Positions 1 to 36,287 of a stretch of DNA of 36,287 nt are shown here, piece after piece. Origin of the DNA: Opitutales bacterium (GTDB lineage: Bacteria > Verrucomicrobiota > Verrucomicrobiia > Opitutales > Seribacteraceae); NCBI GenBank assembly GCA_029254745.1, contig JAQWWZ010000042.1, positions 1 to 36,287 on the forward strand. The letters run 5' to 3'. A program made the position numbers and the translations under genes. The number at the start of each line of letters is the position of its first letter. The first letter of the stretch is position 1. Under the pieces are notes generated by a model that ran no database searches, was not told the DNA's origin, and was given only the letters and a program-made list of their open reading frames with translations.

Positions 1-1155
1 ATGGGTTAAAGATTCACCGACTACCCCGGTGGTGATAGTTACATCACTTCCAAGAAGATCCACCGTACCATCATATATTCGGTCGGCACTCAAACCTACT
101 GTCTTCGTGTTAATCGTGACCGGAGCATTGGTTGAATCCAGGCTGGGCAACTGATAGTTGCTTACCAACCCACTGGAGCCATCGGTTGCATCCGTTAGGG
201 TAATTGCATCAATGTATTTATTGGCAACCGCTACATCTTTTGAACTCGAAGTTGTGCCGGTATGCGTCAAGGTTTCAACCCCTACCCCGGTGGTGATGAT
301 TACATCACTGCCAAGAAGATCCACGGTCCCATCATAAATCCGGTCGGAAATTAATCCGACAGTCTTTGCATTAATAGTTACAGGAGCATTTAAAACATCC
401 AAACTAGGCAGCTGATAATTGCTTGCTAAGCCTCCGGATCCATCCGTTGTATCCGTCAGGGTAATCGCATCAATGTATTTATCTTCCACGGCTACATCTT
501 TAGAGTTCGCAGTGGTCCCCGTGTGAGTCAAAGTTTCACTACCTACACCAGTGGTGATGGTCACGTCATTTCCCATAAAATCTACCGTGCCGTCATAAAT
601 TCGATTTGCTACCAAGCCAACGGTTTTAGCTTTGATGCTAACCGGTGCTAGGCTGCTGTCCAAGGTAGGTAAGTTATAATTACTCGCCAGCCCTCCGGAT
701 CCATCACTGGCGTCGGTTAAGGTAATGGCATTGATATATTTATTAGCCAAAGCTACATCCTTCGAACTCGAGGTTGTGCCGGTATGCGTCAAGGTTTCTA
801 CCCCTACCCCGGTGGTGATGATTACATCACTGCCAAGAAGATCCTCGGTGCCATCATAAATACGTTCAGCACTCAACCCTACTGTCTTTGTGTTAATCGT
901 AACCGGAGCATTGGTTGAATCCAGGCTTGGCAACTGATAATTGCTTGCCAAACCTCCGGAGCCATCGGTTGCATCCGTTAGGGTAATTGCATCAATGTAT
1001 TTATTGGCAACTGCTACATCTTTGTAACTTGATGAGGCTCCCGTGTAAGTAAGAGTTTCACTCCCTACACCTGTTGAAATCGTAACATCGGTCCCCGATA
1101 GATCAACTGCACCATCATAAATACGAGAGGCGGCAAGTCCAACGGTTTTCGCAAC
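1..1155 (-). repeat. Tandem array of five 261-bp (87-residue) YDG repeat units
   Basis: The anchor CTACCCCGGT or a close variant ends at 30, 291, 552, 813 and 1074, exactly 261 bp apart. Each unit encodes an IYDG motif, then a (V/I)TTGVG.ETLTHTG segment, then KYI(N/D)AITLTD and a closing NY.LPSLD. Bases 121-240 match 904-1023 with about 7 differences (offset 783 bp, three units). Bases 241-324 match 763-846 with about 3 differences (offset 522 bp, two units). The array runs off the left edge, so its full copy number is unknown. Neighbouring repeats further right in the same gene are much more diverged. Confidence 0.9.
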
Positions 1156-4100
1156 AATTTCTCCGTTGGTAGCTGTAGTTGTGTAGCCAAGGGTTAGGTA
1201 GTAATTGTTGGAATCTGTACCGCTGAGGCTCATATCGCTTAAGGTGTAACTAAGACCCGTTCCTACATTTTGTGTTGAATAGGAACCCAGACCTTCAGCT
1301 GTGACAATGTCTCCGCTTTCAATCCCAGAAAGAGTAAGGCTTAAACCCGTCATATTAACTGTAGAATCATAGATTTTAGATAAGCCAGCACTGGCGGATG
1401 CTGTGAGGTTTTTAGTATTCACCTGGTGCGACCCAACAATGGTAATAGTATCACTAAAGTTCTCACTATTCTCAGTTGCCTCACCAATACTGCCCAAGGT
1501 GTATGATCCTTGTTCCAATTTATTGGCACTTGAGTAAGCTCCAGACAAAGGGCCAACATCAAAAGATGCGGTCCCCCCTGAACCATCATTCAAGGAGACT
1601 TGATTACTGGCATTGATGGAAACTGAACTTCCCGGGACAGAACCGTCATCCAACCTTACCACAGCAGCACCGTTGTAATACTCAACCGAACCAATCGTGT
1701 AAGATGTGGCAGTGCCATAGGTGTTCACCACATTATCCAACCTGACCAGCAACTGATCAGATGGGACGATTGTGAAATCACCTTCCTCGTATTGAAAAGA
1801 ATAATTGGAGGCGGTCAGCCCGGATGGTAAGAGGACATCTTCATATGTATCAGCAACATCAGTCGAAACGTTAGTTCGGGTAATTGCTAAAGTACCGCCG
1901 ATCAGTCCTGGATCCGTTTCTTGTTCACCGTAATGAAATCCTGAATAAGTCACCCCTTGAAAACCGGCTGGATCTGCCTGGGTAACAAACTTTGAGTCGT
2001 TGGATGCCGTCACGGTTAAAACTGCTTTACTGACACTTAGTACTCTGGGCACATGAGTTATCAAGTAATTTGGAGAAGTTGCCCCCGCTGCAGTAATCGC
2101 ATGATCTCCAACCGTGGCACTCGCCCCGGTTGGTGCACTCAGAACCAAGCCGGAAACAACACTTTCGTTTTCGGAGTTTTGAAAACCAGTATAAGTAGCA
2201 GTACGAACCGGCTCGGCATAACCATAGATTTTAGATAGATCGTCCGCGGTGATCGTTAGAGCTGCCGGATTAATGACATAATCACCATCCAAATAAGTGA
2301 CTAAGTAATTTGATTCAAGGAAACCTCCGCTACCGGTTGCTCCAGAAATATCAATTGCACCTGAGTATGTCCCAGCATTAGCAGTGGCAGTTGATTCATA
2401 AGCACTTGCACCCGTAGTGAGAACAACATCGGTTGCCTCTTCAGAGGGTGCGTAGGTTCCAGAAGTTAGACTAAATGAAGTATTACCTAAGCTATCCACA
2501 TCCCCATAGGTCTTAGATTGATTGGTTGCTGTTAAAGTGATGGGTCTTTGGTTAACCGTGAGAGTACCATTATTTTGGGTAATATTGTAGTTACCGTAGG
2601 TTGCTGTCGCTCCACTTACTGTTATGACATGAGTCACATAACCTGCACTTGCTCCTGTTGGAGCACTTACTGATAAACCAGATATCTCAGAGGATGGAGA
2701 TAATGCGTCATTTCCTACCAAGCCAGTATAATCAACCGACAAAATAGGATTTGCATCGCCATATGTTTTTGATTGATCATCAGCAGTAATTGTCAAAGCA
2801 ATCGGCGTAGTCGTCACTGAATTAACAGCACTTACATAAGAACTACTTGGTAGTTGGTAATTAGATGCCAAACCGGTTCCATCAGCTAAAAAATTTGTCG
2901 TCGTAACTACGAAATTGGTGCCATCGACATTTTTACTGTTCGCAGTCAAAACACCCGTTGTCGATAAGGTTTCCCCGTTCGCCCTATTTCCAATTATGAG
3001 CTCACTGGTTTCAACGATGGCGGTTCCGTCATAGGATTTGGTAACAGAAAGAGTTACCTCTCTCTTGTTTATGGTTAGGTCACCTTCATCCCGAGTAATC
3101 TGGTAATTATTTGTATCAAAATTATCACCAGTCACCGAACCAAGTTGGATAACAATCTCATCGGAGTAGGTAGCTTGATTCTGTTTTGTACTTGCAGCAT
3201 ACCCATTCGCAGAGGTTAATGTCACAGCCGTAGCAGCCTCAGAAGTGTGAACACCGGATGCATAAGGCGCAAATGAACCAGTGGTTAAATCGAATGCAGT
3301 CGTACCCAATGAAAGAACATCTCCATAGGTCTTACTTTGATCCTGAGCCTTTAGGGTAATAGGTCTTTTATTTACGGTAAAGGTCCCAGAAGTAGGGCTA
3401 GCAAAGGTGTAATTATCATTATCTGCGGTTGCTGCACTTACATCAATTGTAATGCTATGTGTACCGGCTGTTGCCGAGGCGTTGGTCGGGGCACTTATAG
3501 TCCATCCTGATATATGACTTGGGTCAAATCCTGTAGCATCACCCGAATAGCTAACTGTGAGAGTTGGGTCTGCATCGCCATAAGTTTTGCTTTGATCATC
3601 AGCCAATATGATTAGGGGTGCTGCAGTTATCGTTAAATTATTTTTGGCAGAATCATAAGCAATGGGCGGCAGTTTATAATTTGCAGCCAAACCACCGGAT
3701 GCGGAAGTTGCTCCAGCTTCATCACCAAGGGAGGTACTGGCTGAGGTATCGATAAACTTGCTGGAGGAATTAACATTTATACTGCTAAGATTATCGGCAC
3801 TTGAGTCCATGGAATTCGCGTTCGAAATCACCAATTCTTCTGCTCCACCTAAAGTGGCATAATTACCCAGCGTAATTTCGCCACTCTCGATAACGCGAGT
3901 ACCATCAAATACCTTAATGGCTGAAAGAGTAAGCTCACGCTTCAGAATTTTGGCATTATTGGTGGTTTGATTCGTAATGCTGTAATTACCTGACTTCGCA
4001 CCAGTCAAATCCGAATTTGTAAGACTCAAAGTTACCGTCTTTACAATCTCATTTCCAGATCCGTCCAGGGCAACATTCTTGTCAGAGAAATTGGCGGAAT

Positions 4101-7100
4101 CCGCACTCAGACTTCCGGAATTCAGAGAAACATCATCAGAGAATAAAACTCCTGATAGTGATCCGTAACTGCTAATACTTGCATCATCTGTACCATCATA
4201 GATTTTATCCGAAGCAGTAAGACCAGAAATCGAAAGAGCTTTTCGGTTTACGGTCAAAGTACCGTTCACATAGTTAATGTTATAATTCCTGGTATCAAAT
4301 CCAGTTGAACCCGAGTCCGTTGCAGCACTCGGTACAATAGCGTAAGAATTGACATTTGTCGTATCGACCGCTCCACCACTCGCGAATGAAATGGTAATTG
4401 CATCATCTCCTTGCAATCCAGCCTCAGTGAATTCAGTACCATCAAATGTTACGGCATCTCCATATGTTTTACTAACTGAATTTGCGGTAATGGTGACATC
4501 TCTTGGAGTAATAGTAACCGAGTTTCTTACTGCATCATAACTCATCGGTGGAAGTACATAATTGGATGCAATTCCATCATTTGAACCGGTATCTCCATCT
4601 GCCAGAACGATTGAGGTAAAGAAGTTGTTTGCCTCCCATTGATTTTTGTAGGCAACGGCTGCTGAGGAAAAAGTAAGGTTTTCACCCGTCGATGCAGTGA
4701 TCGTCAAAACATCGTCTGCACTGGATGGATCAAAAGCCAAACTATCATCGTAGATTTTGGTGGCCGATAAATCGACCTCTCTGGTATTGATGCGGTAGGA
4801 ATCAGTATGGGTATTTAGTGAATAATTATCGCTCTTACCTCCAGATAGAGTCATTCCGGCATAAGTGACTGTTTGATCAATCACATTACCTCCTGCATCG
4901 TAGGTAACATCAGCACTATCAAAAGTTGCGGTAATCGTGGTATAGGAAATTGAAACATCATCATCGGTTCCACCTATACTTACAGGTCTGTTATCATTAT
5001 CTGCATTCGAGCCAGTGGTAACAAAAGATTGTAGAGAGGGTGTACCCGATGGAGTCGCGGTATTGTCCCCATCATAAAATTTATCCGCACTCTCAAGAGT
5101 ACCGTCAACAATAGTTAGTGGTTTTTGGGTAATCGTTAAGGCATTGTCCGTAGCACTGTAAGAAGAGAGGGATGGAAGTTGATAATTGTCAGGATCGCCG
5201 ACGGTACCCGAGGTACCCGAACTGATCGAAATGTTATCAACATAAGGATTTCCCCCACGATCGATTGAACTTGCCGTGACTCCAGCGTCCACAGTTAAAG
5301 TTTCACTGTTTTGCCGATTACCAAGTATGACTTCAGAAGTCTCAATTACATTTGTTCCGTCATAGATCTTGGTTGCAGTTATGGATAATCCTCTTTTGTT
5401 GACAGTAAAGGAATTCTCTGTCGAAGAGTGAGAATTCGAGGATGAAAGATAATAATTGGTTCCAATGCCACCATTGCTACCATCACTTAAAGTGATACTG
5501 GAAACATAATTATCCACTGTACCAGAGTTGCCGTCGGGACCATTAACATCCTTAGTTGCGAGGGTTGCTGAAAAGCCCAATGTTTGGGAACTCACTAGAC
5601 CGGAATCGGCATTCCCGCTAATTGCTCCCAACCCACCTGAAGTAAGAAGCGAAGGGCTTAAGTCAGTGAGTCCATTGTAAGTTTTTTCAGCAATCAGGCT
5701 GAGGGGTCGTTTATTGATCTTGAACTCGTCGTCGGAATGCCCATCCAGGGTGTAGTTGGTTGCATCGCCTCCAGCTAAAGTGATCCCCGAGTAGGAAACG
5801 GTCTGGTTCTGGGCAACTCCACCGGAGTCAGAAACATTGGAACCGGGAAAACTAGCCGATTGCTCAGACAAATTCAGGGAAATCGTATCTCCTGTAATTG
5901 GTCTTTTATCAGAATCGACACTACTGGAACCCGCAATCGTATCCTCCAAAGTCGCTGTACCCACAATCGCTGCCACTGCATTGCCATCATATATCTTATC
6001 TGCACTCTCCAAAGTGAGATTCTTAATTTGCAGTGCTTTTGTTGTAATCGTAACATTGTTCTTGGTGGCGTTGTAGGAATTGGCCGGTTTGGTGTAGTTT
6101 GAGGCTATTCCGGTGCTTCCATCAAGTAACGTAATGGATGAAGTAACCAAGTAGGTGGCATCGTCGACATTTTTAGTACTGGATGTCAAACTTCCTGAAA
6201 AGGTCAAATCTTCACCCGAGACCAGATTAACGGAAGCCGATTCGTCCGAGTCTAATGCTGTAAGCTGATCGTCATCAATGGTTGTCGTACCATCGTAAAC
6301 TTTTGTTGCAAGCAGGTAGACTTCTCTTTCATTAATAATTACCTTATTATCATTTACATCGTATGAACTTGGGATACCTGGAACATTGATGGTGGATCCG
6401 TCTGAGATAAGAGTGAAATTATAAGCGGTCGTGGTATAATTGGATGCAAGGTAAGAACCAGAGTCAGCAAGACCAAGGGCTGTGTTGGTAGCATATTTAC
6501 TGGAAGTGGCTACATTTTTGTCGCTGGAGGTAACTGAGAAGATGAGTGATTCACCTGATTCCAACCCAGAATCCGCAAAACCATTAATTCCACTCAATCC
6601 TCCCGAAGTAACATTGTCATTATTCAAAGTTGTGGTGCCATCATAAGTTTTTTCCCCGCTAAAACCAATTGGTCTGGGATAAATCTTAGCTTGTGCGGTT
6701 GCTTGGTCTGTAATAGAGTAGTTGTATACATCATCACCAGTGTAATTGGTTACTAAATTTACTGTCTTATCCTCAACAGTTGAACCACTTAGTGAAACGT
6801 TCTTGTTTTCGAATGTTCCAGTGACAGTTGAAATCGAGAAATTGTCACCACTTATTTTGCCCAACGAAACCAAGTTGGTGTTAACCGGGCTAAAATATTC
6901 GTTAGCTGAAAGACCGCCATCATAGATTTTATCATCAACTTCAATACCGGAAATCGTTATCGGTTTAGGGGTAATGGTTACATCGTTGTAAGTGGCGGTG
7001 TTACTAATACTCGAAATGCTAATATTTGTATGATCCGCGTCCGAAGTGTCCCAAAGATCTTTATTACTAAATTTATAGTCGGTGATGAATCCTGAAGCAT

Positions 7101-10100
7101 TGTAACTGCCAGATGTTTGCCGAACCGCATCCGCAGCATCCTGCAAGGCAATCGCGGAGATATAGGTCATAGATCGAACTCCATCTGTAACAGTTCCAGC
7201 ATGCTCACTGGCCGTCGAAGCGTTAGAATACTGCAAAGTCTCTCCAGTTATTTCTGTGGTAACAGTCAAATCTTCGACATCTCCAGATTCTGGCCAATTG
7301 ACCTCGGAATCATAAACTCTGGTTCCGGTTATTGTCAGCTGCTTAGGAATAACCTTGAACGGTGCATTCGCTGCATTAAGCGTCGGCAGGCTATAATTTT
7401 GTGGCTCAAACTCACTACCGCCAGCGTCATCACCAAGAACAATTTTAGTTATGAAATTATCTGTTCTGTCCGTTGTATCACTGTCACTATCATCATGCTC
7501 AAAGATGTAAGTCTCTTTGTGGTCATCTGGTCCGGTGACATGTTTTGAGCTGATGGTGCCAGCATGTTCAGCATGATTAGTTACATAAGAAAAATCCTCA
7601 TTATTAATCAACCCTCCTGAAGCTGCTGCAACTCCAGCAGCTTCGTTACTTGAATCATCAGGGTCTACAATTAAAATTTCTCCCTCAACAACAGGAGCTG
7701 TATAGTAAGGACTACCAGTTTCTGGAACTACATATCTAGAGATATAATTATTTCCATCATAAGTTTTTTTTGCCGGGATATATAATATTTGTCTTTGATT
7801 AATTCGACCATCCGTTCCATCAATTGCGTTGGAAGACAATAAATAGTTTGAAGAATCAGATCCGCTCAGGATCACATTTTCAATGCGATAATTTTTATCA
7901 GTTACATTGTAAGTGATCGTGTGACCTACATCGGTTGTTCCACTATACTCAACATCCTTATTTGTAGTTTCATCGGCATTCCGATAAGTCCCCAATCCGG
8001 AAACATTCACGGTATCACCAGACTTAATCAGACTGGATAGATCATACTGCAGACCTTCCATGTCCGGAGTACCGTCGTAGATTTTAGTCTTACCAGCAGA
8101 AACATGGGATGGGGAAAGAGTTAAGGTCAAAGTATCAACCGTGTGGGTGCCATTGACAACTACGGTACTCGAAAAAGAACCAGAATTATCGATTTCACTC
8201 GCCCCAAGTTTATAGGTCCCAACTTTTAAATCCCCCGAACTTGAATTATTCCCTGAGGGAGGTCCAAGTTTGAAAATGAGCACGTTTACATCATCACCTA
8301 GACTATCACTTACCGTAAGCTTGTTGCTGATAGCTTCCATAACATAAAAGGAGTCATCAACCGTCTGAATGATAGACCCATCATAGTAAGAAATTGAAGA
8401 AATGGTATAAGCCGGTAATGCGTCACCATAAGTAGAAACAGCATCATTCAGAACAACTTTCAACTCATTGGCAGGAACAATGGTAAAAACTCCGTTTGCG
8501 GTACTGAGGGAATAGTTGGCAACGGTGATACCAGTGACATCTGGGATTAAAGCATAATCTCCAGCAGTATCGTTCGTAGAATCTGCACGGGATAGAGTGG
8601 CACTACCAGTTAAAACCGAAAGATTCTCGTAATTCACAAAACCAGAATAAGTTACCCCACTAAAGCCTGACGGGTCACTTTCGGATATAAATTTAAAAGA
8701 TGAATTGGCCGTAACAGTAAGCACAGCTTTGTTAATGGAAGCGTCCACCGTTTCGGTGGTTGATTCCAAAACATAATCCGTCGGATAAGAATTTTTTGAA
8801 CCTGAAATATTATTAATCGTAATTCCGCTCATCGTGAGGGAGCTGGCATCCGCTACACTGCCACTATTATAATTTGCATCGGAGAAGCTTAATTCAGCAC
8901 TTGCATCCCCAGATACTAAGCCTGTGAAGGTATACTCTGGGGAAAAGTCATCTGCGGCACTATCGAAACCATCATAAGTTTTAGTGAGTCCAGCCGATGG
9001 GCTAGCATGGGAACCATTGTTAACAGATACAGACAGAGTCGCCACATTAGTAGTTACTGGTGCATTTGAACGGGTAAGTGTGGGCAACTTATAATTACGC
9101 GACTTGGTGGCAGAGCCCACATTGATGGCAGGTGACTGGATGGTCCCATTGGTAAGAGTAATTGCGTTGATGTACCTGTAGGTAGCATCTGCCATAACGT
9201 GCTTATTACGGACAGTTGCACCAGAATAACCGATTGCTTCATTGGTAATCAAGTTACCAATTGTCACTTCACTACCATTTAAAACATTGTTTCCATCATA
9301 AGTTTTTGTAGCTGATAGAGTGACTTGTTTTTGATTCACAGTAATAGTCTGATTATTGGTTACATTGTAACCCAGTGCCGATAGATTCTCTGAGATGGAA
9401 TAACTTTGCACCTGAAAATCTCCACTGGCAGCATCAACTTCTCCTTTAACATCTAAATATTTAGTTTCGTCACTGCCGTGATCGGTGTAAGACTCATCTT
9501 CAATGGACGCAGTAAGGGTATCTCCATTTTGTAAATTATCCGTAGAAATAGTCGGAGTGGCAGAACCATATGTAAGAGTGGTGTCAGATAGTACTATAGA
9601 AGACGCCGGTTGTTCGCGATAAACCGCATATTTTCCTGAAGAAATGGCAGTTGTGTAGTTTGAAGCGCTTTCATCACTATAATATCGAAAGCGCCCCGTA
9701 CCCCATCCGATCAAAGTAGTCAGTCCAGTGGATCCTGTTATGCTTCCCGTGTAGAAAATTGCCTGCCCTGATCCTCCAACTGAAATCGAAGGTGATCCAG
9801 AAATTGAAATATCTCCCCCTGAAGATGAACCTGCACTGTCGTTTTTGCCGGCATTTAATAAAATCGCTGAATTCGTTGTGTTGGTGGTGGTCAGGTTAGC
9901 CGCAAGCGAAATATCGTTATCAGCGTTTATGGTTAACGTACCTGCACCAGAATTAATCGAATTACTTACAATTGCATCCTGACCGACTGTGGCACTAAAA
10001 GTTGCCGAGGTAAGATTCGCACCAACACTTAGGTCTCTTCCACTCGTGATTGTTAAATCTCCGGAGTCAATATCAACCGCTGCGTTGATCAACACATCCT

Positions 10101-11694
10101 GCCCTGCTTCCAAGGTTAAATTATTACTGCCGGAATAGGAAATAGCAGAGTTTATGGTCAGGTCATAATTTCCAGAACCAGTCTGGATACTTACATTGCT
10201 TGATCCAAGAGCGTTTACGATGGATGTGGGGTGAATATCCGTATCGATCCCCACGGGGAAACTAGGCAATGAGTCGGTATCCGAAGTGCCGGAATCGGTA
10301 ATATTGATATTTCCAGGATCCAAAAGCCATAATCCAGTGCTACCAGCGGTGGCAATGGTGGAAACTTTAGCTTGGTTAATATTTAGAATTCGACCGGAGG
10401 TTTCCACCATTCCTCCATCTCCCTGCTTGGAGCCCCCTTGGGCATAAATTTCGCCAAGCACGGTGGTAAAAGAATTCGGATTCAACACATCAGACCATAA
10501 AACCACTTTTCCTCCATCCCCATTGGAACTGGCACTGGCATCAATTCGAGCCCCTTCAGCCATGAAAACAATCTCGGCTTGGATGATGGCATCTGGATCA
10601 TCAAATATACGCAATTCGTCATTGGTACCGCCCTGCCAGTCACCACCAATCAAAACTTCACCACCTCCAATCGAGCCTGTGGCATCTATCACGGAGTCTG
10701 TTTCCAAAATGATGGCTTCACCCTCCAAGGTAACCCTTCCTCCCTTACCGTGGATCGAGGAAACATCAAGTAAGCCAGCGTTTTCAACAGTTCCATTCTC
10801 TCCGCTCGTGAGAATCAACCTGCCACCCACCCTCTTCATACCGGTTGCCTTGATTGAACCCGTATTACGAATCAAGCCACCCCGCAAAGACCGAACGGCT
10901 TGGGCAGACAAAATAACCAGACCTTCTTCAGCCTCAATCGCACTGTTATTCTCTACGAGTGCTTCCCATTCGCCAGGTGTGACTCGAATGCCGGAGAGTT
11001 TGCCATATGGGTCCAATTCCAATTCCACCATCTCACCGGAAGCCAGAGCCACGGTTCCTTTCTCGGCAAAAATAAGGCCTTGATTTCGTACATCTGGGGC
11101 AAGCAAGGCAATAAAACCCTCAAACTTAGCCCGTAATTCGCCTTCATTTACCACCTCCCCTGAACCTTTACCCTGCAAAAAGCGAAGTTGTCCCTTCATA
11201 AAGTCTTCGATATCAATGTCCATGGTTGTGGCAACCAAGCTGCCAACATCAACAGATGCAGAACGGCCAAAATAAACCCCATTCCCGTTGGAAATAAAAA
11301 CTTGGCCTGGTGCTTGAATTCGACCCAAAATTTGGCTGGGGTTTGCCCCTGTTATACGATTCAAAGTAGCGGCCGCAGAATTAGGCTGGTTAAAATGGAT
11401 AGATGCATCCTTTCCTACGTTAAAGGATCTCCAGTCAATCACAGCCCGTTGAGATGATTGATTGATCAGCATATTTGCACCGGAAATATCAATGTGTGCA
11501 CCACCAGCTTTTATCTGGCTACCAGAAGGGAGGGCAATTGAAGGGGTTGCTTGCGACCATGCTACCTTGACCTGAACCCCAAGGAGAATGACAATACTAA
11601 TGGCTAAAAAACGAAATCCTCCAAGAAATTTGGCAAGGATAAGTACCACACAAGCAAACCCGCTGGTGCACGATCTGAAAACCATTGACAACAT
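1..11694 (-). CDS. Giant two-partner secretion exoprotein (filamentous haemagglutinin-like adhesin), C-terminus beyond left edge
   Basis: One minus-strand reading frame starts at ATG 11694. I found no stop in the lines I checked down to base 1, so at least 3898 residues are present and the C-terminus is missing. Residues 1-48 form a long signal region with a hydrophobic stretch ending near AWSQA. Residues ~50-180 match the haemagglutination-activity (TPS secretion) domain, with NQPN, then SNGNGVYFG and DVGSLVAT. A beta-helix region continues to about position 9650, where a VYREQP segment closes it. After that come YDG-type repeats (KIYDGT... ending NY.LP) and MBG-type repeats (KTYGDADP...); I count roughly two dozen of the former and fewer of the latter. 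The transporter gene lies 46 bp upstream. By family knowledge the protein is exported through TpsB and displayed as a surface adhesin. An ATG at 11685 is an alternative start; the Shine-Dalgarno signal is weak for both. Confidence 0.93.
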   Translation of the reverse strand, partial: MLSMVFRSCTSGFACVVLILAKFLGGFRFLAISIVILLGVQVKVAWSQATPSIALPSGSQIKAGGAHIDISGANMLINQSSQRAVIDWRSFNVGKDASIHFNQPNSAAATLNRITGANPSQILGRIQAPGQVFISNGNGVYFGRSASVDVGSLVATTMDIDIEDFMKGQLRFLQGKGSGEVVNEGELRAKFEGFIALLAPDVRNQGLIFAEKGTVALASGEMVELELDPYGKLSGIRVTPGEWEALVENNSAIEAEEGLVILSAQAVRSLRGGLIRNTGSIKATGMKRVGGRLILTSGENGTVENAGLLDVSSIHGKGGRVTLEGEAIILETDSVIDATGSIGGGEVLIGGDWQGGTNDELRIFDDPDAIIQAEIVFMAEGARIDASASSNGDGGKVVLWSDVLNPNSFTTVLGEIYAQGGSKQGDGGMVETSGRILNINQAKVSTIATAGSTGLWLLDPGNINITDSGTSDTDSLPSFPVGIDTDIHPTSIVNALGSSNVSIQTGSGNYDLTINSAISYSGSNNLTLEAGQDVLINAAVDIDSGDLTITSGRDLSVGANLTSATFSATVGQDAIVSNSINSGAGTLTINADNDISLAANLTTTNTTNSAILLNAGKNDSAGSSSGGDISISGSPSISVGGSGQAIFYTGSITGSTGLTTLIGWGTGRFRYYSDESASNYTTAISSGKYAVYREQPASSIVLSDTTLTYGSATPTISTDNLQNGDTLTASIEDESYTDHGSDETKYLDVKGEVDAASGDFQVQSYSISENLSALGYNVTNNQTITVNQKQVTLSATKTYDGNNVLNGSEVTIGNLITNEAIGYSGATVRNKHVMADATYRYINAITLTNGTIQSPAINVGSATKSRNYKLPTLTRSNAPVTTNVATLSVSVNNGSHASPSAGLTKTYDGFDSAADDFSPEYTFTGLVSGDASAELSFSDANYNSGSVADASSLTMSGITINNISGSKNSYPTDYVLESTTETVDASINKAVLTVTANSSFKFISESDPSGFSGVTYSGFVNYENLSVLTGSATLSRADSTNDTAGDYALIPDVTGITVANYSLSTANGVFTIVPANELKVVLNDAVSTYGDALPAYTISSISYYDGSIIQTVDDSFYVMEAISNKLTVSDSLGDDVNVLIFKLGPPSGNNSSSGDLKVGTYKLGASEIDNSGSFSSTVVVNGTHTVDTLTLTLSPSHVSAGKTKIYDGTPDMEGLQYDLSSLIKSGDTVNVSGLGTYRNADETTNKDVEYSGTTDVGHTITYNVTDKNYRIENVILSGSDSSNYLLSSNAIDGTDGRINQRQILYIPAKKTYDGNNYISRYVVPETGSPYYTAPVVEGEILIVDPDDSSNEAAGVAAASGGLINNEDFSYVTNHAEHAGTISSKHVTGPDDHKETYIFEHDDSDSDTTDRTDNFITKIVLGDDAGGSEFEPQNYSLPTLNAANAPFKVIPKQLTITGTRVYDSEVNWPESGDVEDLTVTTEITGETLQYSNASTASEHAGTVTDGVRSMTYISAIALQDAADAVRQTSGSYNASGFITDYKFSNKDLWDTSDADHTNISISSISNTATYNDVTITPKPITISGIEVDDKIYDGGLSANEYFSPVNTNLVSLGKISGDNFSISTVTGTFENKNVSLSGSTVEDKTVNLVTNYTGDDVYNYSITDQATAQAKIYPRPIGFSGEKTYDGTTTLNNDNVTSGGLSGINGFADSGLESGESLIFSVTSSDKNVATSSKYATNTALGLADSGSYLASNYTTTAYNFTLISDGSTINVPGIPSSYDVNDNKVIINEREVYLLATKVYDGTTTIDDDQLTALDSDESASVNLVSGEDLTFSGSLTSSTKNVDDATYLVTSSITLLDGSTGIASNYTKPANSYNATKNNVTITTKALQIKNLTLESADKIYDGNAVAAIVGTATLEDTIAGSSSVDSDKRPITGDTISLNLSEQSASFPGSNVSDSGGVAQNQTVSYSGITLAGGDATNYTLDGHSDDEFKINKRPLSLIAEKTYNGLTDLSPSLLTSGGLGAISGNADSGLVSSQTLGFSATLATKDVNGPDGNSGTVDNYVSSITLSDGSNGGIGTNYYLSSSNSHSSTENSFTVNKRGLSITATKIYDGTNVIETSEVILGNRQNSETLTVDAGVTASSIDRGGNPYVDNISISSGTSGTVGDPDNYQLPSLSSYSATDNALTITQKPLTIVDGTLESADKFYDGDNTATPSGTPSLQSFVTTGSNADNDNRPVSIGGTDDDVSISYTTITATFDSADVTYDAGGNVIDQTVTYAGMTLSGGKSDNYSLNTHTDSYRINTREVDLSATKIYDDSLAFDPSSADDVLTITASTGENLTFSSAAVAYKNQWEANNFFTSIVLADGDTGSNDGIASNYVLPPMSYDAVRNSVTITPRDVTITANSVSKTYGDAVTFDGTEFTEAGLQGDDAITISFASGGAVDTTNVNSYAIVPSAATDSGSTGFDTRNYNINYVNGTLTVNRKALSISGLTASDKIYDGTDDASISSYGSLSGVLFSDDVSLNSGSLSADSANFSDKNVALDGSGNEIVKTVTLSLTNSDLTGAKSGNYSITNQTTNNAKILKRELTLSAIKVFDGTRVIESGEITLGNYATLGGAEELVISNANSMDSSADNLSSINVNSSSKFIDTSASTSLGDEAGATSASGGLAANYKLPPIAYDSAKNNLTITAAPLIILADDQSKTYGDADPTLTVSYSGDATGFDPSHISGWTISAPTNASATAGTHSITIDVSAATADNDNYTFASPTSGTFTVNKRPITLKAQDQSKTYGDVLSLGTTAFDLTTGSFAPYASGVHTSEAATAVTLTSANGYAASTKQNQATYSDEIVIQLGSVTGDNFDTNNYQITRDEGDLTINKREVTLSVTKSYDGTAIVETSELIIGNRANGETLSTTGVLTANSKNVDGTNFVVTTTNFLADGTGLASNYQLPSSSYVSAVNSVTTTPIALTITADDQSKTYGDANPILSVDYTGLVGNDALSPSSEISGLSVSAPTGASAGYVTHVITVSGATATYGNYNITQNNGTLTVNQRPITLTATNQSKTYGDVDSLGNTSFSLTSGTYAPSEEATDVVLTTGASAYESTATANAGTYSGAIDISGATGSGGFLESNYLVTYLDGDYVINPAALTITADDLSKIYGYAEPVRTATYTGFQNSENESVVSGLVLSAPTGASATVGDHAITAAGATSPNYLITHVPRVLSVSKAVLTVTASNDSKFVTQADPAGFQGVTYSGFHYGEQETDPGLIGGTLAITRTNVSTDVADTYEDVLLPSGLTASNYSFQYEEGDFTIVPSDQLLVRLDNVVNTYGTATSYTIGSVEYYNGAAVVRLDDGSVPGSSVSINASNQVSLNDGSGGTASFDVGPLSGAYSSANKLEQGSYTLGSIGEATENSENFSDTITIVGSHQVNTKNLTASASAGLSKIYDSTVNMTGLSLTLSGIESGDIVTAEGLGSYSTQNVGTGLSYTLSDMSLSGTDSNNYYLTLGYTTTATNGEIVAKTVGLAASRIYDGAVDLSGTDVTISTGVGSETLTYTGASSSYKDVAVANKYIDAITLTDATDGSGGLASNYQLPSLDSTNAPVTINTKTVGLSAERIYDGTEDLLGSDVIITTGVGVETLTHTGTTSSSKDVALANKYINAITLTDASDGSGGLASNYNLPTLDSSLAPVSIKAKTVGLVANRIYDGTVDFMGNDVTITTGVGSETLTHTGTTANSKDVAVEDKYIDAITLTDTTDGSGGLASNYQLPSLDVLNAPVTINAKTVGLISDRIYDGTVDLLGSDVIITTGVGVETLTHTGTTSSSKDVAVANKYIDAITLTDATDGSSGLVSNYQLPSLDSTNAPVTINTKTVGLSADRIYDGTVDLLGSDVTITTGVVGESLTH

Positions 11695-11740
11695 ATTCTT
11701 CACGCGCGTGTTACATTTAACGATGATAATCAATAATGTG

Positions 11741-13435
11741 CTAGAAGGTTCGTGCAAGCACAATCCACCATCTATTTTTATCCAAAGTACCATCTGAATC
11801 GAAACCCGTATTGGGATCAGAATTTGGATTATCTCCAATTCGGCGAGCATAGGTGGTTTGAAGACTGAAGCCGAGGGGGGTACTCCATGAAGTACTCACC
11901 CCAGCACCCGATATTTCGTATTCTGTTGGACCAAGCGATGTGGGTGCTCTTTCCTGAACCATACCCCAATCATAGAAAGGCTTAATAATGAGCGACTTAG
12001 CAGCCAAATAGCGAAGTTCTACGCCTAATTTTTGTCCTTGTGGTCCCGAAGCTTCACCCGAGGGATATGCCCGAACACCTGACAATCCACCAAGGCTGAA
12101 ATTCTCTGCACTATCCAGATATTCCTGCTCACTCACCGATGACCCCAGTGTAATTTGCTGGGCATTTGAAGAGGCAATATCTAGCCCATATTGACCCGTA
12201 AAAGAAAGGAACAAGCTAAGCTTTTCAGTAAATGATTGCTGACGCGTAACGGAGTAATTCAGCAGAGTATGGTAATTTTTGCTCACATTAAAACCCTCGG
12301 CTTTACCGTGAGTGAAGGACAAACTCGCACTGTTAGCACCTCCTTTTAAAAATTTATCAAAGAAGTTAGCAGAAAATGCAATTTTACTATTGTCGATCGA
12401 ATATTCTTTTTGAACAACTCCACCAACCGTGGTGCTGTATTCGCGGTGATCGAAGCTAAAAGTAGAATATAGATTTCCATTCCGGCTTCGGATAATTGGA
12501 TAACGAAGACTAATGCCCTCTTCATTGACTTTACCTGATATATCCAAAGCCTTTAGTTCTGGGGCAACAACGGAATAATTCATACGGCTGATGTTCAAGT
12601 TCATCTTCCAACCGCGTGCCCCCAATGGAAACCCAAAACTGAACCGACCATAGCGACTTCCCTTACTCTTAAGTGTTTGCAATGCGAGAGTCTCACCATA
12701 CTTGAAAGGGCTAACCAGCATACCAGAAAAAGACACCTTTTCTGAACCTAAAGAACGGGAGTTTGCATTGTCTGCTGCAAGGTCAGCAATGTAAGCCGGT
12801 TCCTTGGAACTTTTCACAACTAAATCAACGTGACCTGGTTCTTTACTGGATTGCAGAAAGCCTGTTAGACTAACGCCAGGTAAATCATCGGCAACCAAGA
12901 GTCTACGATCAAAATCTTCTGATTTGTATAATTGGCCAGGATTAATTTCACTTTGAAGAAGGGATAAAACGATAGATTTTCTCACTGAGGTAGAACCTGT
13001 TGGATCAAATATTATTTGCCCAAACCGTCCTTCCACTACCTCAATTTTAACCATCCCGCTGGTTATATCTTGTGGCGGAATAACGGCACGCGCAATATGA
13101 CCATGTAGCTCATAATGCTTCTCAATAACAGCAGTTACCTTAGAGAGTTCGCTAAATGTAATAGGTTTTCCAATAAAATCTCTGACCAACTCATTAAGTT
13201 CATGAGGAGAAAACCTGGAAACCCCAGTAAATTCCCAAGATACAGGTTTGAAAGTTTCCTCTTCAGGTTCCGGGGATACATTTGTCTTCAGAATTGGATC
13301 GTCTGAATTCGCGGAAATAGAAGAATTGGTTTGCTCTTCTGAAAAGGCAAAAGGAAGAAAAGAGCTAGACCAATAAAAAAAAACTGAGAATAAAACGATG
13401 GTTTTTTTTGTAAAGTGATGGGAGTAAAGAGACAT
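11741..13435 (-). CDS. TpsB outer-membrane transporter (ShlB/FhaC/HecB family)
   Basis: 564 residues, the usual length for the family. A signal peptide covers residues ~1-32, followed by a short acidic, Ser-rich linker. A POTRA domain spans ~62-140, with the EKHYELHGHIARAVIPPQ segment and the VEGRFGQI strand. The rest is a beta-barrel that ends in the terminal Phe typical of outer-membrane proteins. GGLSGVRAYPSGEA near residue 475 is the conserved VRGY-type motif of the L6 loop. The protein should translocate the adjacent giant exoprotein across the outer membrane. The gene sits just upstream of tpsA in the same direction, which is the standard TPS arrangement. Its own promoter is probably in the 106-bp gap before it, which also holds a near-palindrome. 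Confidence 0.95.
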   Translation of the reverse strand: MSLYSHHFTKKTIVLFSVFFYWSSSFLPFAFSEEQTNSSISANSDDPILKTNVSPEPEEETFKPVSWEFTGVSRFSPHELNELVRDFIGKPITFSELSKVTAVIEKHYELHGHIARAVIPPQDITSGMVKIEVVEGRFGQIIFDPTGSTSVRKSIVLSLLQSEINPGQLYKSEDFDRRLLVADDLPGVSLTGFLQSSKEPGHVDLVVKSSKEPAYIADLAADNANSRSLGSEKVSFSGMLVSPFKYGETLALQTLKSKGSRYGRFSFGFPLGARGWKMNLNISRMNYSVVAPELKALDISGKVNEEGISLRYPIIRSRNGNLYSTFSFDHREYSTTVGGVVQKEYSIDNSKIAFSANFFDKFLKGGANSASLSFTHGKAEGFNVSKNYHTLLNYSVTRQQSFTEKLSLFLSFTGQYGLDIASSNAQQITLGSSVSEQEYLDSAENFSLGGLSGVRAYPSGEASGPQGQKLGVELRYLAAKSLIIKPFYDWGMVQERAPTSLGPTEYEISGAGVSTSWSTPLGFSLQTTYARRIGDNPNSDPNTGFDSDGTLDKNRWWIVLARTF

Positions 13436-32254: not shown

Positions 32255-32785
32255 ATGGAAGACAAAACTAACGACGAGCACTCTCTTTTTCTTAGTTATC
32301 TCGCCTCAAGCGAGCCAATTATTCGTGCCTACCTCAGATCTTTGGTACAAGATTATCACGACCAATCCGAAATCATGCAAAATGTTTTCATTACTGCCTG
32401 GAATAAATTTTCAAGTTTTAGTGGATCTCAAGACGAATTTTGTAAATGGGCTTGTGTCATTGCCCGCTACCAAGCAATGAAACATCGCCAAAACCAAGCC
32501 AGGGACAGACTCGTTCTAAATGACAAATTAATTACTCTGATAGCCGATGAAGGAATAGAAGATCAATCCACCACCAAGCATTGGCACAAAAAATTGGATA
32601 TTTGCCTGCAGAAACTTTCACCCAGCAACCGAACCCTTATTCAAAAAGCCTACGAATTAGATCAATCGATTAAAGAACTAGCCAATTCATTAAATAAGAG
32701 CCCAAATTCATTTTACCAAAAATTACTGCGTATTCGAAAAAGCCTTTCCAAATGCATGGATACAGATCCGGCCCTTTATTCCTGA
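32255..32785 (+). CDS. ECF sigma factor, second paralog
   Basis: 176 residues. It shares layout and motifs with the first sigma protein: IIRAYLRSLVQDYHDQSEIMQN and KFSSFSGSQDEFCKWACVIARYQAMKHRQNQARDR in region 2, and LSPSNRTLIQKAYELDQSIKELANSLNKSPNSFYQKLLRIR in region 4. The FKFWA/DFRRWAF-type segment, LVLNDKLITLIAD and the CLQKLSP junction line up with the first copy, so the two genes probably arose from one family by divergence. The coding sequence is more AT-rich than the operons to the left. It is followed after 11 bp by its FecR partner. Confidence 0.9.
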   Translation: MEDKTNDEHSLFLSYLASSEPIIRAYLRSLVQDYHDQSEIMQNVFITAWNKFSSFSGSQDEFCKWACVIARYQAMKHRQNQARDRLVLNDKLITLIADEGIEDQSTTKHWHKKLDICLQKLSPSNRTLIQKAYELDQSIKELANSLNKSPNSFYQKLLRIRKSLSKCMDTDPALYS

Positions 32786-32796
32786 CATCAAATAAT

Positions 32797-34461
32797 ATGA
32801 AAGATAGCGATCAGACTCTTATTGAACTTTATTTGGAAGGAAACTTGCCGAAAGATAAATGGGACATGTTTTCCACACGACTCAATGAATCCTATAAAAT
32901 GAGGAGGGAATTCCGTAAATTGTGTACTCTGGATGATCGTTTACGTTCTGGCTCGCTCCATCATTTATTGACCTCAGAATTCCAACCCAAGAATAAAATT
33001 TCACTAATAATGTCGAGGACCGGAATCGCCGCTTGTATATTAATTGCTTTGTTTTTTGGTTCTAAAAGTAAATTACTGGAGGAAATTGGCACTGAACCTC
33101 TTATCGCTTCTGTTCCAAAAGATTTACAAGCGAATAGGGTGCCCTATGCTGTAATTCTCGACTATTTCCAGCCATTTCATAATCCGGATTCCATCCTGGG
33201 TTGTAAAATTTTCGAACCTAGAAAATTTAAAATGGAGGCGGGCGGGGTTCACTTGCGCTTTAACAATTGCGTTGACTTTATTTTTCAAGGACCCGGGGAG
33301 TTTGAAATTCTTGGGAGAAAAGATGTGCGGATATTTAAAGGCAATGCAAGAACTATGGTTTTAAATAAAAAGGGTAGAGAATTCACTATTCATACTGATA
33401 CCTCAAAAATTGTGGATTGGGGCACGGAATTTTCCGTCTCTGTGAGCCCAGGTGAAAAGCCAAAAATCAAGGTTAGAAATGGCATTGTGGAAATTAAAAG
33501 CAAGGACGATCATTCACTTGGATTTTTAGAGAGATATAATAACCCACTAAACACGACGGATATAGCTAAACTCCAATCATCATTTACTAATTTCAATGAT
33601 TCTAAAGTTTTTCAACCGGGAAACTTGGGATATAAACGTAAATCGGCAAGGATGAATGGATTTCAATCAGATAACAGCGTCTTGGGATATTTCGATTTTG
33701 CTTATCCACCTTTGAGTGAATTGAAAGGTAACAATTATAAGGAGAAAACCCCTCAATCTAGAATATCAGTAAAAAATGCACTCCGCCCGAATAGAATTAT
33801 TAAAAATCATAAGAAAAACTCTCTGGTTAGCAATGGTGTGATGCATAACTCAGTCTGGTCTGTTGGAAGATTTCCTGGTTCAAGAGCACTATTGATGAAC
33901 AAACAAGAAAGTCATATTTCGTTAGATATAAGCGGTAAACATAAGGAGATGACCATTTCTTGTTGGATCAATGCATCACAGTCGATGAACGCATGGTCGT
34001 GTATATTTGGATCAAGAAACTGGGATAAATCGGGACGATTACGATTTGAATTTCCACGTTTATCTAGAACCCCTAAACTTTTCTGCTGGGGAGAAAAATC
34101 TTTCGGTTACAACTCTCAACGATCAACCGATCTAAAGTTACCATATAACGAATGGATAATGGCAAGTATTGTCATGGGAATATCGGAAAACCACTACCTT
34201 GGATTAACTTATGTTAACGGGGACATTCAAAACAAATCAAAAGCGAAATATCTAAATTATTTGGAACCCGGTGAGTTAATAGTGGGGAATATCAGAAATT
34301 CTCGTCTTAGCACAATCCCTGACCCTAACAATTGGGAAAGACCGTTAAGCGGATTAATCGATGAACTTATTATATGGAACCGTTGTCTTTCTGCAGAAGA
34401 AATTAAAAAACTGCATAAAGAAGGAGACACAACTTACTTGAGTAACTTTGCCTCACTTTAA
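32797..34461 (+). CDS. FecR-domain membrane protein with C-terminal LamG (jelly-roll) domain
   Basis: About 554 residues from ATG 32797. An in-frame ATG at 32752 would overlap the sigma gene and add 15 residues. The N-terminal helical part (LIELYLEGNLPKDKWDMF) is followed by one membrane segment (~70-86, IAACILIALFFGS). The FecR domain (~110-240) includes GGVHLRFNNCVDFIFQGPGEFEIL, DTSKIVDWGTEFSVSV and KVRNGIVEIKSKDD. Residues ~370-545 are a LamG-type domain with MTISCWINASQ and the diagnostic end LIDELIIWNRCLSAEEIKKLHKEG. It likely holds and senses for the second sigma factor, with the lectin-like part in the periplasm. Confidence 0.87.
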   Translation: MKDSDQTLIELYLEGNLPKDKWDMFSTRLNESYKMRREFRKLCTLDDRLRSGSLHHLLTSEFQPKNKISLIMSRTGIAACILIALFFGSKSKLLEEIGTEPLIASVPKDLQANRVPYAVILDYFQPFHNPDSILGCKIFEPRKFKMEAGGVHLRFNNCVDFIFQGPGEFEILGRKDVRIFKGNARTMVLNKKGREFTIHTDTSKIVDWGTEFSVSVSPGEKPKIKVRNGIVEIKSKDDHSLGFLERYNNPLNTTDIAKLQSSFTNFNDSKVFQPGNLGYKRKSARMNGFQSDNSVLGYFDFAYPPLSELKGNNYKEKTPQSRISVKNALRPNRIIKNHKKNSLVSNGVMHNSVWSVGRFPGSRALLMNKQESHISLDISGKHKEMTISCWINASQSMNAWSCIFGSRNWDKSGRLRFEFPRLSRTPKLFCWGEKSFGYNSQRSTDLKLPYNEWIMASIVMGISENHYLGLTYVNGDIQNKSKAKYLNYLEPGELIVGNIRNSRLSTIPDPNNWERPLSGLIDELIIWNRCLSAEEIKKLHKEGDTTYLSNFASL

Positions 34462-34552: not shown

Positions 34553-34768
34553 ATGAATATCCAAAATTACAAAACATTACCGGACTTTATGATTACTATG
34601 ACGGATGCGGCTCGAATTTTAGGTTACAAGGACTACAGGCATGTGGAGAAACTTATCAGTCAAAACCACCTTAAGTGCTACAATATCCCTACCAGTAAAC
34701 GGCCGCTACTTCGATATAAAGATGTCATGACTCTGCCTAAGACAACTCAAGACAGCGGTAATAACTGA
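34553..34768 (+). CDS. Mini helix-turn-helix protein 1 (excisionase/MerR-like)
   Basis: 71 residues that are almost only a single DNA-binding domain: MTDAARILGYKDYRHVEKLIS, then NHLKCYNIP, then SKRPLLRYKDVMTLPK. This matches the HTH_17/excisionase-like winged-helix pattern (HTH, turn, then R/L-x-R wing). It is the first of three tandem paralogs 34553-35368 on the same strand. No integrase or prophage genes are nearby, so a regulator is more likely than an excisionase. The start ATG has no clear Shine-Dalgarno. Confidence 0.8.
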   Translation: MNIQNYKTLPDFMITMTDAARILGYKDYRHVEKLISQNHLKCYNIPTSKRPLLRYKDVMTLPKTTQDSGNN

Positions 34769-34835
34769 AAAGAATGTTTAATTGTTACTGTATCACCATT
34801 CGCCTCCTAATAAATAAAATTTATCTAGTTTAAGT

Positions 34836-35123
34836 ATGACAAATGTTCACACTCATGAGCAAAATTCTGAACACAACAGTTACCTTGCTGTCGAGACAAA
34901 GCCCGAATTTGAGCAGTTAGACCGATTTATCACCTTTACACAGGCAGCACAGATTCTAGGTTACGCTACTCATATTTCCGTAAACAGGTTAATTAAACGA
35001 AACCTTCTCACCCTCTATTTCCTCCCTTCATCGAGCAAGAGGATTCTACTGAGTGAGGTTTCAACATTAATGCAGGCTAACCCTAAAAAGGAAGGTAAAA
35101 GAGGAAGACCCAGCAAATTCTGA
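34836..35123 (+). CDS. Mini helix-turn-helix protein 2 with C-terminal AT-hook core
   Basis: 95 residues. An unrelated 30-residue N-terminal extension (with HTHEQNSEHNS) precedes the HTH: FTQAAQILGYATHISVNRLIKR, NLLTLYFLP, SSKRILLSEVSTLM. After it the protein ends in KEGKRGRPSKF, containing the AT-hook core RGRP. The AT-hook binds the minor groove of AT-rich DNA, and a 649-bp AT-rich block lies downstream. It sits 67 bp after the first paralog and 44 bp before the third. Confidence 0.8.
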   Translation: MTNVHTHEQNSEHNSYLAVETKPEFEQLDRFITFTQAAQILGYATHISVNRLIKRNLLTLYFLPSSSKRILLSEVSTLMQANPKKEGKRGRPSKF

Positions 35124-35167
35124 TCCATTCACCAGTTATGAAAAATTATAGCCACTAATTTAGCTAG

Positions 35168-35368
35168 ATGAATCACACTTATTCTAATCAACTAATTAGT
35201 TTTACGGAAGCAGCCAAATTACTCGGTTACAGATCTTCAAAAATTATCGAAAACCTAGTGAATCAAAACCACCTGCAAGTTCATTTTAAACTCGATTCTT
35301 CTAGGCGCCTGGTTGACGCAGCAGAGGTAAAAAGCTTAATTAAACCCGTAGATAAAAAAAGTATTTAA
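35168..35368 (+). CDS. Mini helix-turn-helix protein 3 (excisionase/MerR-like)
   Basis: 66 residues. It contains the same single domain: FTEAAKLLGYRSSKIIENLVNQ, NHLQVHFKL, SSRRLVDAAEVKSLIKPV. It shares the T-x-A-A-x-(I/L)-LGY signature with the two preceding genes and has the shortest flanks. It is directly followed by the AT-rich palindrome-rich region. The three proteins are clear paralogs, yet divergent enough to bind different sites. Confidence 0.8.
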   Translation: MNHTYSNQLISFTEAAKLLGYRSSKIIENLVNQNHLQVHFKLDSSRRLVDAAEVKSLIKPVDKKSI

Positions 35369-35379
35369 TTGATCATCAA

Positions 35380-35400
35380 AATTGTTTACAAAAAACAATT
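35380..35400. terminator. Inverted repeat after the third mini-HTH gene, possible terminator
   Basis: AATTGTTT and AAACAATT (8-bp arms, 5-base spacer) start 11 bases after the stop codon. No clear T-run follows, so it may be an operator or a weak terminator instead. Confidence 0.35.
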
Positions 35401-35488
35401 ATTAAAATCTCTTTTGAGGATTTATAATTGTTAGTCATTAAGCTAACTGATAAGTTAATACCATCATAATTGATTCTATTGTATCTTA

Positions 35489-35527
35489 TTTGTCATGTTA
35501 TCATTTAACATATGATAACATGACAAA
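35489..35527. promoter_or_regulatory. 16-bp perfect inverted repeat with 7-base spacer
   Basis: Arms TTTGTCATGTTATCAT and ATGATAACATGACAAA are exact complements separated by TTAACAT. A perfect 16-bp repeat is unlikely by chance even in AT-rich DNA. It may be an operator for one of the tandem mini-HTH proteins, a bidirectional terminator without a good T-run, or a recombination site. Confidence 0.6.
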
Positions 35528-36017
35528 AACTTACAGTTCAGTTATAAACTCAAATAGTCGAGTTACATAAAAAATACCTTTGAATTAAACAGATTTGCAA
35601 AAAAACCAATTTTGTAGGTTTAGTAATAGTATCCTGTAAGGATCTCAAACATAATGCTGTAAAGATTTTTTATACACCATAGCTTATTACTATAATTCAT
35701 ACAAAAAGTATGTAATTATTATGATTATTAGTTACATAAGTATTCATTACTTAAAAAAAAATAATAAATTTCATTATATATTTTTTTTTAGTTACAATTA
35801 ATAAACTTCATTGAGTCTTATTAATTTGAAGAAAGTAAATATTTTATGTATTTTTTCCCATGTTATTGCTAATAGATTAGTATATACATTTAACATTTTA
35901 CACTAACTTCATAAACTAGTACGTAATCATTATTATTTAATAAGCAACCACACGCAACATCAGCACAATAAAATTAATTTTTCTTATTTTTTTCAGCGAA
36001 AAAACCAAAATTAAATC

Positions 36018-36287
36018 ATGAATCCAAAGGTTTACATCTCTTTTTATCTTTTTATTTTACTAAATTTGCATGGCTTGCATGCCCAGACCATTGTCCCGGC
36101 AGGCTTGGGTTCGATGAGTGTAACTCAACCATCTCGGGAGACTGCCACCCTTACCGGCCAACTTCTTAGCACGGGCGGGCAGAACCCAACGGTAAAGATA
36201 CGCTGGGGAGATGAGGACCGTGGAACTGCAGTCACGCCCAGCACCGCCTGGGATAATGAAGTCACTGTTTCGACCAATCAGGCAGCT
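36018..36287 (+). CDS. Secreted surface protein, N-terminal 90 residues (right edge cuts it)
   Basis: ATG 36018 starts a frame that is open to base 36287. Residues 1-23 form a signal peptide (to LHAQ). The mature part has IVPAGLGSMSVTQPSRETATLTGQLL then GGQNPTVKIRWGDEDRGT, the pattern of fibronectin type III-like modules common in secreted proteins of marine Verrucomicrobiota and Planctomycetota. The rest of the protein is outside the window, so total size and function are unknown. It is preceded by the 649-bp AT-rich block and may be a target of the mini-HTH proteins and/or the sigma/FecR pair. Confidence 0.75.
   Translation, partial: MNPKVYISFYLFILLNLHGLHAQTIVPAGLGSMSVTQPSRETATLTGQLLSTGGQNPTVKIRWGDEDRGTAVTPSTAWDNEVTVSTNQAA

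Follow-up and report, generated by a model that had tools for sequence, protein, structure and literature searches.

Single-domain proteins of the BldC/Xis type have mostly been studied singly. BldC binds direct repeats cooperatively, in head-to-tail fashion (PMC5859096). Filament formation on DNA has been described for RdfS, lambda Xis and BldC alike, with RdfS binding as head-to-tail multimers, and a BldC orthologue has been reported to bind AT-rich regions via indirect readout (PMC11963761). In ECF promoters the two boxes stand at a fixed distance of about 16-17 bp, as published for an ECF regulon (PMC6767563). Here we describe a locus from an Opitutales draft genome (2.45 Mb, 72 contigs) in which several small proteins with a predicted BldC/Xis-like fold are encoded in tandem between an ECF sigma/FecR pair and the gene of a giant secreted protein. 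The analysed stretch (36,287 bp, hereafter the window) is contig C32 in full, and its features are collected in Table 1.

Table 1. Positions and supporting evidence of features in the window.
Feature	Position	Strand	Evidence
ECF sigma factor, array-linked type	32255..32785	+	Sigma70_r2 31.5 bits and r4_2 26.1 bits, both over cut-off
FecR-like/LamG protein, putative membrane anti-sigma sensor	32752..34461	+	Laminin_G_3 1.7e-12; FecR 21.2 bits, under cut-off 24
Mini winged-helix protein, array position 2	34553..34768	+	71 aa; tree support 99/92
Mini winged-helix protein, array position 4, C-terminal AT-hook-like KRGRPSKF (about 35097-35120)	34836..35123	+	95 aa; tree support 97/92; tail kept in relatives
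Mini winged-helix protein, array position 5	35168..35368	+	66 aa; tree support 98/87; model matches Xis and BldC, Z 7.7 each
Perfect 16-bp inverted repeat, 7-bp spacer	35489..35527 (arms 35489-35504/35512-35527)	.	Strong hairpin, z -7.5
Core promoter-like motif ATGTATT-N15-GCTAA, common to giant secreted-protein genes	35846..35872	+	Strict form once in window
Array-specific element CTAATAGATTAGTATAT, candidate operator or sigma-specific extension	35869..35885	+	Pattern matches 5 times in 42 genomes
Giant secreted protein N-terminus, gene runs off contig	36018..36287	+	Signal-peptide-like start; relatives' giant genes begin with 67-86% identical N-termini

Results

Three small paralogous ORFs (hereafter minis) lie in tandem at 34553-35368, encoding proteins of 71, 95 and 66 aa that are 35-43% identical in pairs (BLASTP E 3e-12 to 2e-10), and they are the sole members of their family detected in this genome. 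A sequence-only reading had proposed three tandem paralogous mini helix-turn-helix genes with the common motif T-x-A-A-x-(I/L)-LGY, and ORF positions, BLASTP and the motif itself (TDAARILGY, TQAAQILGY and TEAAKLLGY) confirmed this. It had also called the products excisionase-like single-domain proteins, which is supported by weak HTH_17/excisionase matches and by the predicted fold. All matches to curated family models were below threshold, the best reaching 15.5 bits against a cut-off of 27 for HTH_17 (PF12728) and 13.9 bits against 28.8 for the excisionase domain (TIGR01764), so the likeness is one of fold and not of formal family membership.

Structural models of the minis (66-95 aa) displayed the order E-H-H-E-E-H, corresponding to one MerR-like winged-helix domain without a coiled coil or effector domain. 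The model of a position-4 relative (pLDDT 83) had BldC (Z 8.2) and Pukovnik Xis (Z 7.5) as its best structural matches, and the position-5 model from the window (pLDDT 81) matched both at Z 7.7; these Z scores are moderate and the Foldseek E-values were weak (best 0.02). dN/dS on concatenated position-matched array genes was 0.14, 0.25 and 0.07 in the three clean array pairs counted (the first gene pair of G013/G018 and its concatenated value were left out), so the minis are real genes and are under purifying selection.

An iterated profile over loci from related genomes yielded 78 mini genes, with more loci added afterwards. Profile matches at E up to 1e-9 were found in 19 genomes of a single Opitutales (Verrucomicrobiota) family, and arrays of three to five tandem minis, counted from locus maps, were present on 18 contigs from 15 of its genomes. 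Among the rest of the sampled order and phylum, about 720 genomes, the array family was absent, with no profile match in the 334 other genomes of the order listed without one and none in 387 others of the phylum sample, two samples that partly overlap. Named records with minis fall in Opitutales/Opitutia and nearly all are metagenome-assembled; the record Opitutales AM-382-K23 is not labelled as such and is single-cell-like by its name, which speaks against a binning artefact. We conclude that the arrays are real and lineage-restricted.

The tree of minis resolved five position-specific groups that follow array order together with a class of singletons, its deep forks being weak because it was built on 52 columns only. 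Position 5 was the least clean group, with the position-5-like genes of four-gene arrays falling outside its main group. The minis of the window belong to positions 2, 4 and 5. The gaps before the first and second of them measure 91 and 67 bp, so that positions 1 and 3 are absent here and not merely unread. The sequence-only reading had treated the triplet as a unit; judged from profile and tree, it is instead what remains of a longer, lineage-specific cassette in which up to five paralogs, each tied to its position, stand in a set order, and two of these have no counterpart in the window. The AT-hook-like C-terminal tail of position 4 retained GR in all 13 sequences and GRP in 12 of 13. Between two genomes, G030 and G058 (L034:3995-5500 against L089), the array DNA was 97-99% identical and the flanks mostly 75-90%, a pattern which suggests that this array was exchanged as a unit or is unusually constrained.

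Outside the arrays, singleton minis with a PLPxPPP tail begin about 20-25 bp after some giant-type genes (L039:1-197, L044:9022-9219, L118:421-687), and some giant genes may be flanked on both sides by minis. The array upstreams of one lineage (L045, L046 and L047) share repeated TTTGCAAT/ATGCAAT, and those of a second (L040, L042 and L043) share a TTGACA box and a TAAT-type box; both patterns are possible array promoters or autoregulatory sites.

No integrase is encoded in the window, and the genome's three PF00589 hits all fall on contigs other than C32. Across the 15 array genomes such hits likewise lay on contigs without an array; the one exception was a short piece of an integrase gene some 6 kb away from an array. 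Relatives of the minis were not found in viral contigs (searched with the position-4 alignment), phages or plasmids. The absence of an integrase or phage gene beside the triplet, on which the sequence-only reading had remarked, is thus upheld, with orthologs in 15 genomes lacking an adjoining integrase.

Upstream of the triplet, domain matches confirmed the expected sigma/FecR-LamG pair. The ECF gene overlaps the downstream FecR-domain gene, as in ECF/FecR pairs (the FecR score being sub-cut-off), and the FecR-like/LamG gene possibly starts at an internal ATG at 32797. The window holds two such pairs. The ECF adjoining the triplet had its best relatives elsewhere among ECFs beside mini arrays (61, 55, 39 and 39% identity); the ECF tree is poorly resolved and does not place the array ECFs in a single clade. 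Full-length alignment of the adjoining FecR was obtained only with array-locus FecRs, and the other pair of the window groups with an unlinked pair. Arrays preceded by both an ECF and a FecR/LamG gene are those of the window, G027, G030 (two loci), G058 and G009; in L032 and L033 the stop of FecR overlaps the start of the first mini. The arrays of G008:C246 and G035 have an ECF before them but no intact FecR, and in G008:C132 a 200-bp stretch before the array is 94% identical to the G009 ECF gene. GC content of the ECF2-FecR2-mini block was 37-38% compared to 43% for the window.

Downstream, the next gene on the same strand was a giant secreted-protein gene in 7 of the 13 arrays with a resolved neighbour (window, L032, L034, L035, L049, L089, L116). 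The remaining six were followed by a response regulator and kinase (three, one lineage), a convergent gene (two) or an ECF pair (one), and five further arrays stop at or near a contig edge. The order ECF-FecR-minis-giant on one strand, sometimes with overlaps, recurred in several genomes. That the triplet sits between a signalling pair and a secreted-protein gene, as the sequence-only reading had it, is borne out, and the same placement in relatives speaks for a multi-protein regulator that acts locally; the set probably provides dedicated local control of the giant gene. Many giant genes have no array, so giant expression as such does not depend on one.

A giant-family protein was visible to 3599 aa with seven LamG stretches. 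Open frames of up to 14,789 aa carry a giant-related module, and the 14,789-aa frame (G017:C5:149309-161104) was among the largest seen in the analysis. A second giant gene of the same genome (L088, G000:C33:51488-51757) has an N-terminus 88% identical to that at window 36018-36287 and no mini array; both contigs end inside the giant gene, probably because a shared repeat breaks the assembly. Response regulator and histidine kinase genes lie downstream of the array in L045, L046 and L047, and a related response regulator was found near a singleton mini gene (L119:7704-8156, G030:C81). At the other end of the window (1-13435, minus strand) a very long secreted ORF of >3950 aa has, by eye, a filamentous-haemagglutinin-like start, and the adjoining 564-aa ORF resembles its two-partner secretion transporter.

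The region between the triplet and the giant gene (35369-36017) is 649 bp long with 22% GC. The AT-rich palindromic block pointed out in the sequence-only reading is present in the window and is not shared with relatives: the inverted repeat was not found in their intergenic regions and was rejected as a shared operator, and it corresponded to no terminator-like site or Rfam family. AT-richness was likewise rejected as a general feature of array loci, the giant upstreams of G027, G030, G058 and G008 being about 59-65% AT. From the comparison of upstream sequences, the promoter and element at 35846-35885 are a better candidate target than the palindromic block.

The strict core motif lies about 170 bp upstream of the giant gene. 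Giant upstreams, with or without arrays, share YGTATT-N16-YTAA, and a slightly relaxed form of it was found at exactly this spacing in 24 of 28; other spacings gave 0-5 matches and the opposite strand 1. Judged by sequence, chance probably accounts for a few of the 24, and some true sites lie one base off in spacing. A stricter form was present in 17 of 27 giant upstreams (shuffle mean 0.44, maximum 3). The spacing of 16 bp agrees with that of ECF-type promoters (about 16-17 bp). The YGTATT and YTAA boxes do not match the AAC/CGT hallmark of ECF promoters (PMC8103513), so the assignment to an ECF sigma is putative.

Genome-wide, AYGTATT-N15-GCTAA was observed directly before many secreted-protein genes (L135-L174; G000:C29, C33, C34 and C72, and relatives), most exact matches being so placed, which is how a surface-protein regulon under a single sigma factor might look. 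Exact-motif counts were only slightly or modestly above the reversed control, so the idea of a wider regulon draws on the genes downstream of the matches and not on the counts. An ECF sigma gene conserved in two genomes (L165, G000:C29:20674-21209; G017:C10:113781-114312) is separated from the following same-strand gene by a stretch with the core motif, and this ECF could be the sigma that reads the core promoter.

Array-linked giant promoters add YTAATAGNNTWGTATAY, whose five matches in 42 genomes, the window among them, all lie directly downstream of an array, with a giant gene visible after four of them and a contig end after the fifth; these same loci served to define the pattern, and the informative part is accordingly its absence elsewhere, including other giant promoters. 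A shorter variant follows the G008:C246 array. The element was absent at the G004 and G012 arrays, where the giant genes are of another type and no ECF is adjacent. It may serve either the minis or the ECF.

Discussion

We lean towards the reading that BldC/Xis-like minis act locally, together with an ECF-FecR switch, on the promoter of the giant gene, a mechanism we regard as plausible. The FecR/LamG protein would sense an outside signal and release the ECF sigma, which would then transcribe the giant gene, encoding a secreted LamG-repeat protein, from its own promoter. The minis would bind as monomers side by side on AT-rich DNA via the winged helix, most likely in the manner of BldC/Xis, with the position-4 protein contributing a minor-groove AT-hook. 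Assembly would take place within 35369-36017; the likeliest site is the element 35869-35885, where the core promoter ends. Binding near the promoter, probably cooperative, would tune expression of the giant gene. We infer DNA binding by the minis, their mixed assembly, the target site and the sign of regulation, as well as the reading of the giant promoter by the adjacent ECF sigma. The position clades, dN/dS, BldC/Xis matches, position-4 tail, gene order, array-type ECF/FecR, core promoter and array-specific element, along with the head-to-tail DNA binding described for BldC and RdfS (PMC5859096, PMC11963761), led us to this explanation. Counting against it are the six of 13 resolved arrays without a following giant gene, the many giant genes without an array, the derivation of the array-specific element from the described loci, its possible use by the ECF and its lack at two giant-linked arrays with no adjacent ECF, and the moderate Z scores with weak Foldseek E-values.

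A more elaborate form, which we put forward tentatively and consider rather unlikely, is that up to five ordered minis coat the giant promoter jointly, as a nucleoprotein filament of mixed but defined composition, with the FecR/LamG signal and array make-up jointly setting expression and different arrays in one genome addressing different giant genes.

It is also conceivable, though again improbable in our judgement, that the ECF/FecR pair alone controls the giant gene, that the array element is part of the sigma's promoter, and that the minis regulate only their own operon or other genes. Such an arrangement would fit the occurrence of the element only where an array-type ECF/FecR adjoins and its lack at two giant-linked arrays without an adjacent ECF, as well as the fixed promoter spacing known for ECFs (PMC6767563); however, the core promoter also occurs at giant genes without an adjacent ECF, and the retention of several diverged putative DNA-binding proteins beside the giant gene would be left unexplained. 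We give little credence to the minis as a local xenogeneic-silencer-like coat on AT-rich DNA without specific sites. The AT-hook-like tail, the BldC/Xis-like fold, the AT-rich binding of a BldC orthologue by indirect readout (PMC11963761) and the 22% GC intergenic region in the window are consistent with a coat, whereas the much less AT-rich giant upstreams of other array loci and the five diverged position types, which suggest distinct specificities, are not. Finally, an excisionase role was rejected and it is very improbable that the minis serve as recombination directionality factors of the excisionase type or are left over from an integrated element, since despite their fold, the weak excisionase family matches, the lower GC of the ECF2-FecR2-mini block and the signs of array exchange between two genomes, tyrosine recombinase hits lie off the array contigs in all 15 genomes (bar the one short fragment), there is no phage, plasmid or viral-contig link, and order is conserved with purifying selection at up to five different positions.

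The components of the arrays are of known kinds and their ordered combination appears new: narrow literature searches found no description of tandem excisionase-like paralogs in Verrucomicrobiota and, for Opitutales, nothing relevant on giant proteins with laminin-G domains. As many as five diverged BldC/Xis-type proteins in a conserved order, tied to one sigma/anti-sigma type, one promoter class and giant proteins, would offer a natural system for the question of mixed assembly. The common promoter motif and the very specific candidate element give a first handle on the control of extremely large secreted-protein genes in uncultured marine Opitutales.

Among described systems, FecI-FecR cell-surface signalling has the same order of an ECF sigma gene and an overlapping FecR-domain gene, but here a LamG domain is joined to the FecR-like part and a giant secreted protein is presumed to be the target; to our knowledge, known FecIR systems include no block of mini winged-helix genes. 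Phage Xis and recombination directionality factors (Pukovnik Xis 4J2N, RdfS 8DGL, HTH_17) equal the minis in fold and size (Z 7.5-7.7 for Pukovnik Xis), whereas the minis have no integrase nearby and no phage or plasmid relatives. BldC of Streptomyces (68 aa, MerR-like; PDB 6AMA, 6AMK; PMC5859096) resembles the minis in size, in its single winged-helix domain and in having no dimerization or ligand domain, with a sequence identity of only about 20%. BldC is, however, described as one pleiotropic developmental regulator, while the minis are several diverged paralogs in an ordered cassette beside an ECF/FecR pair.
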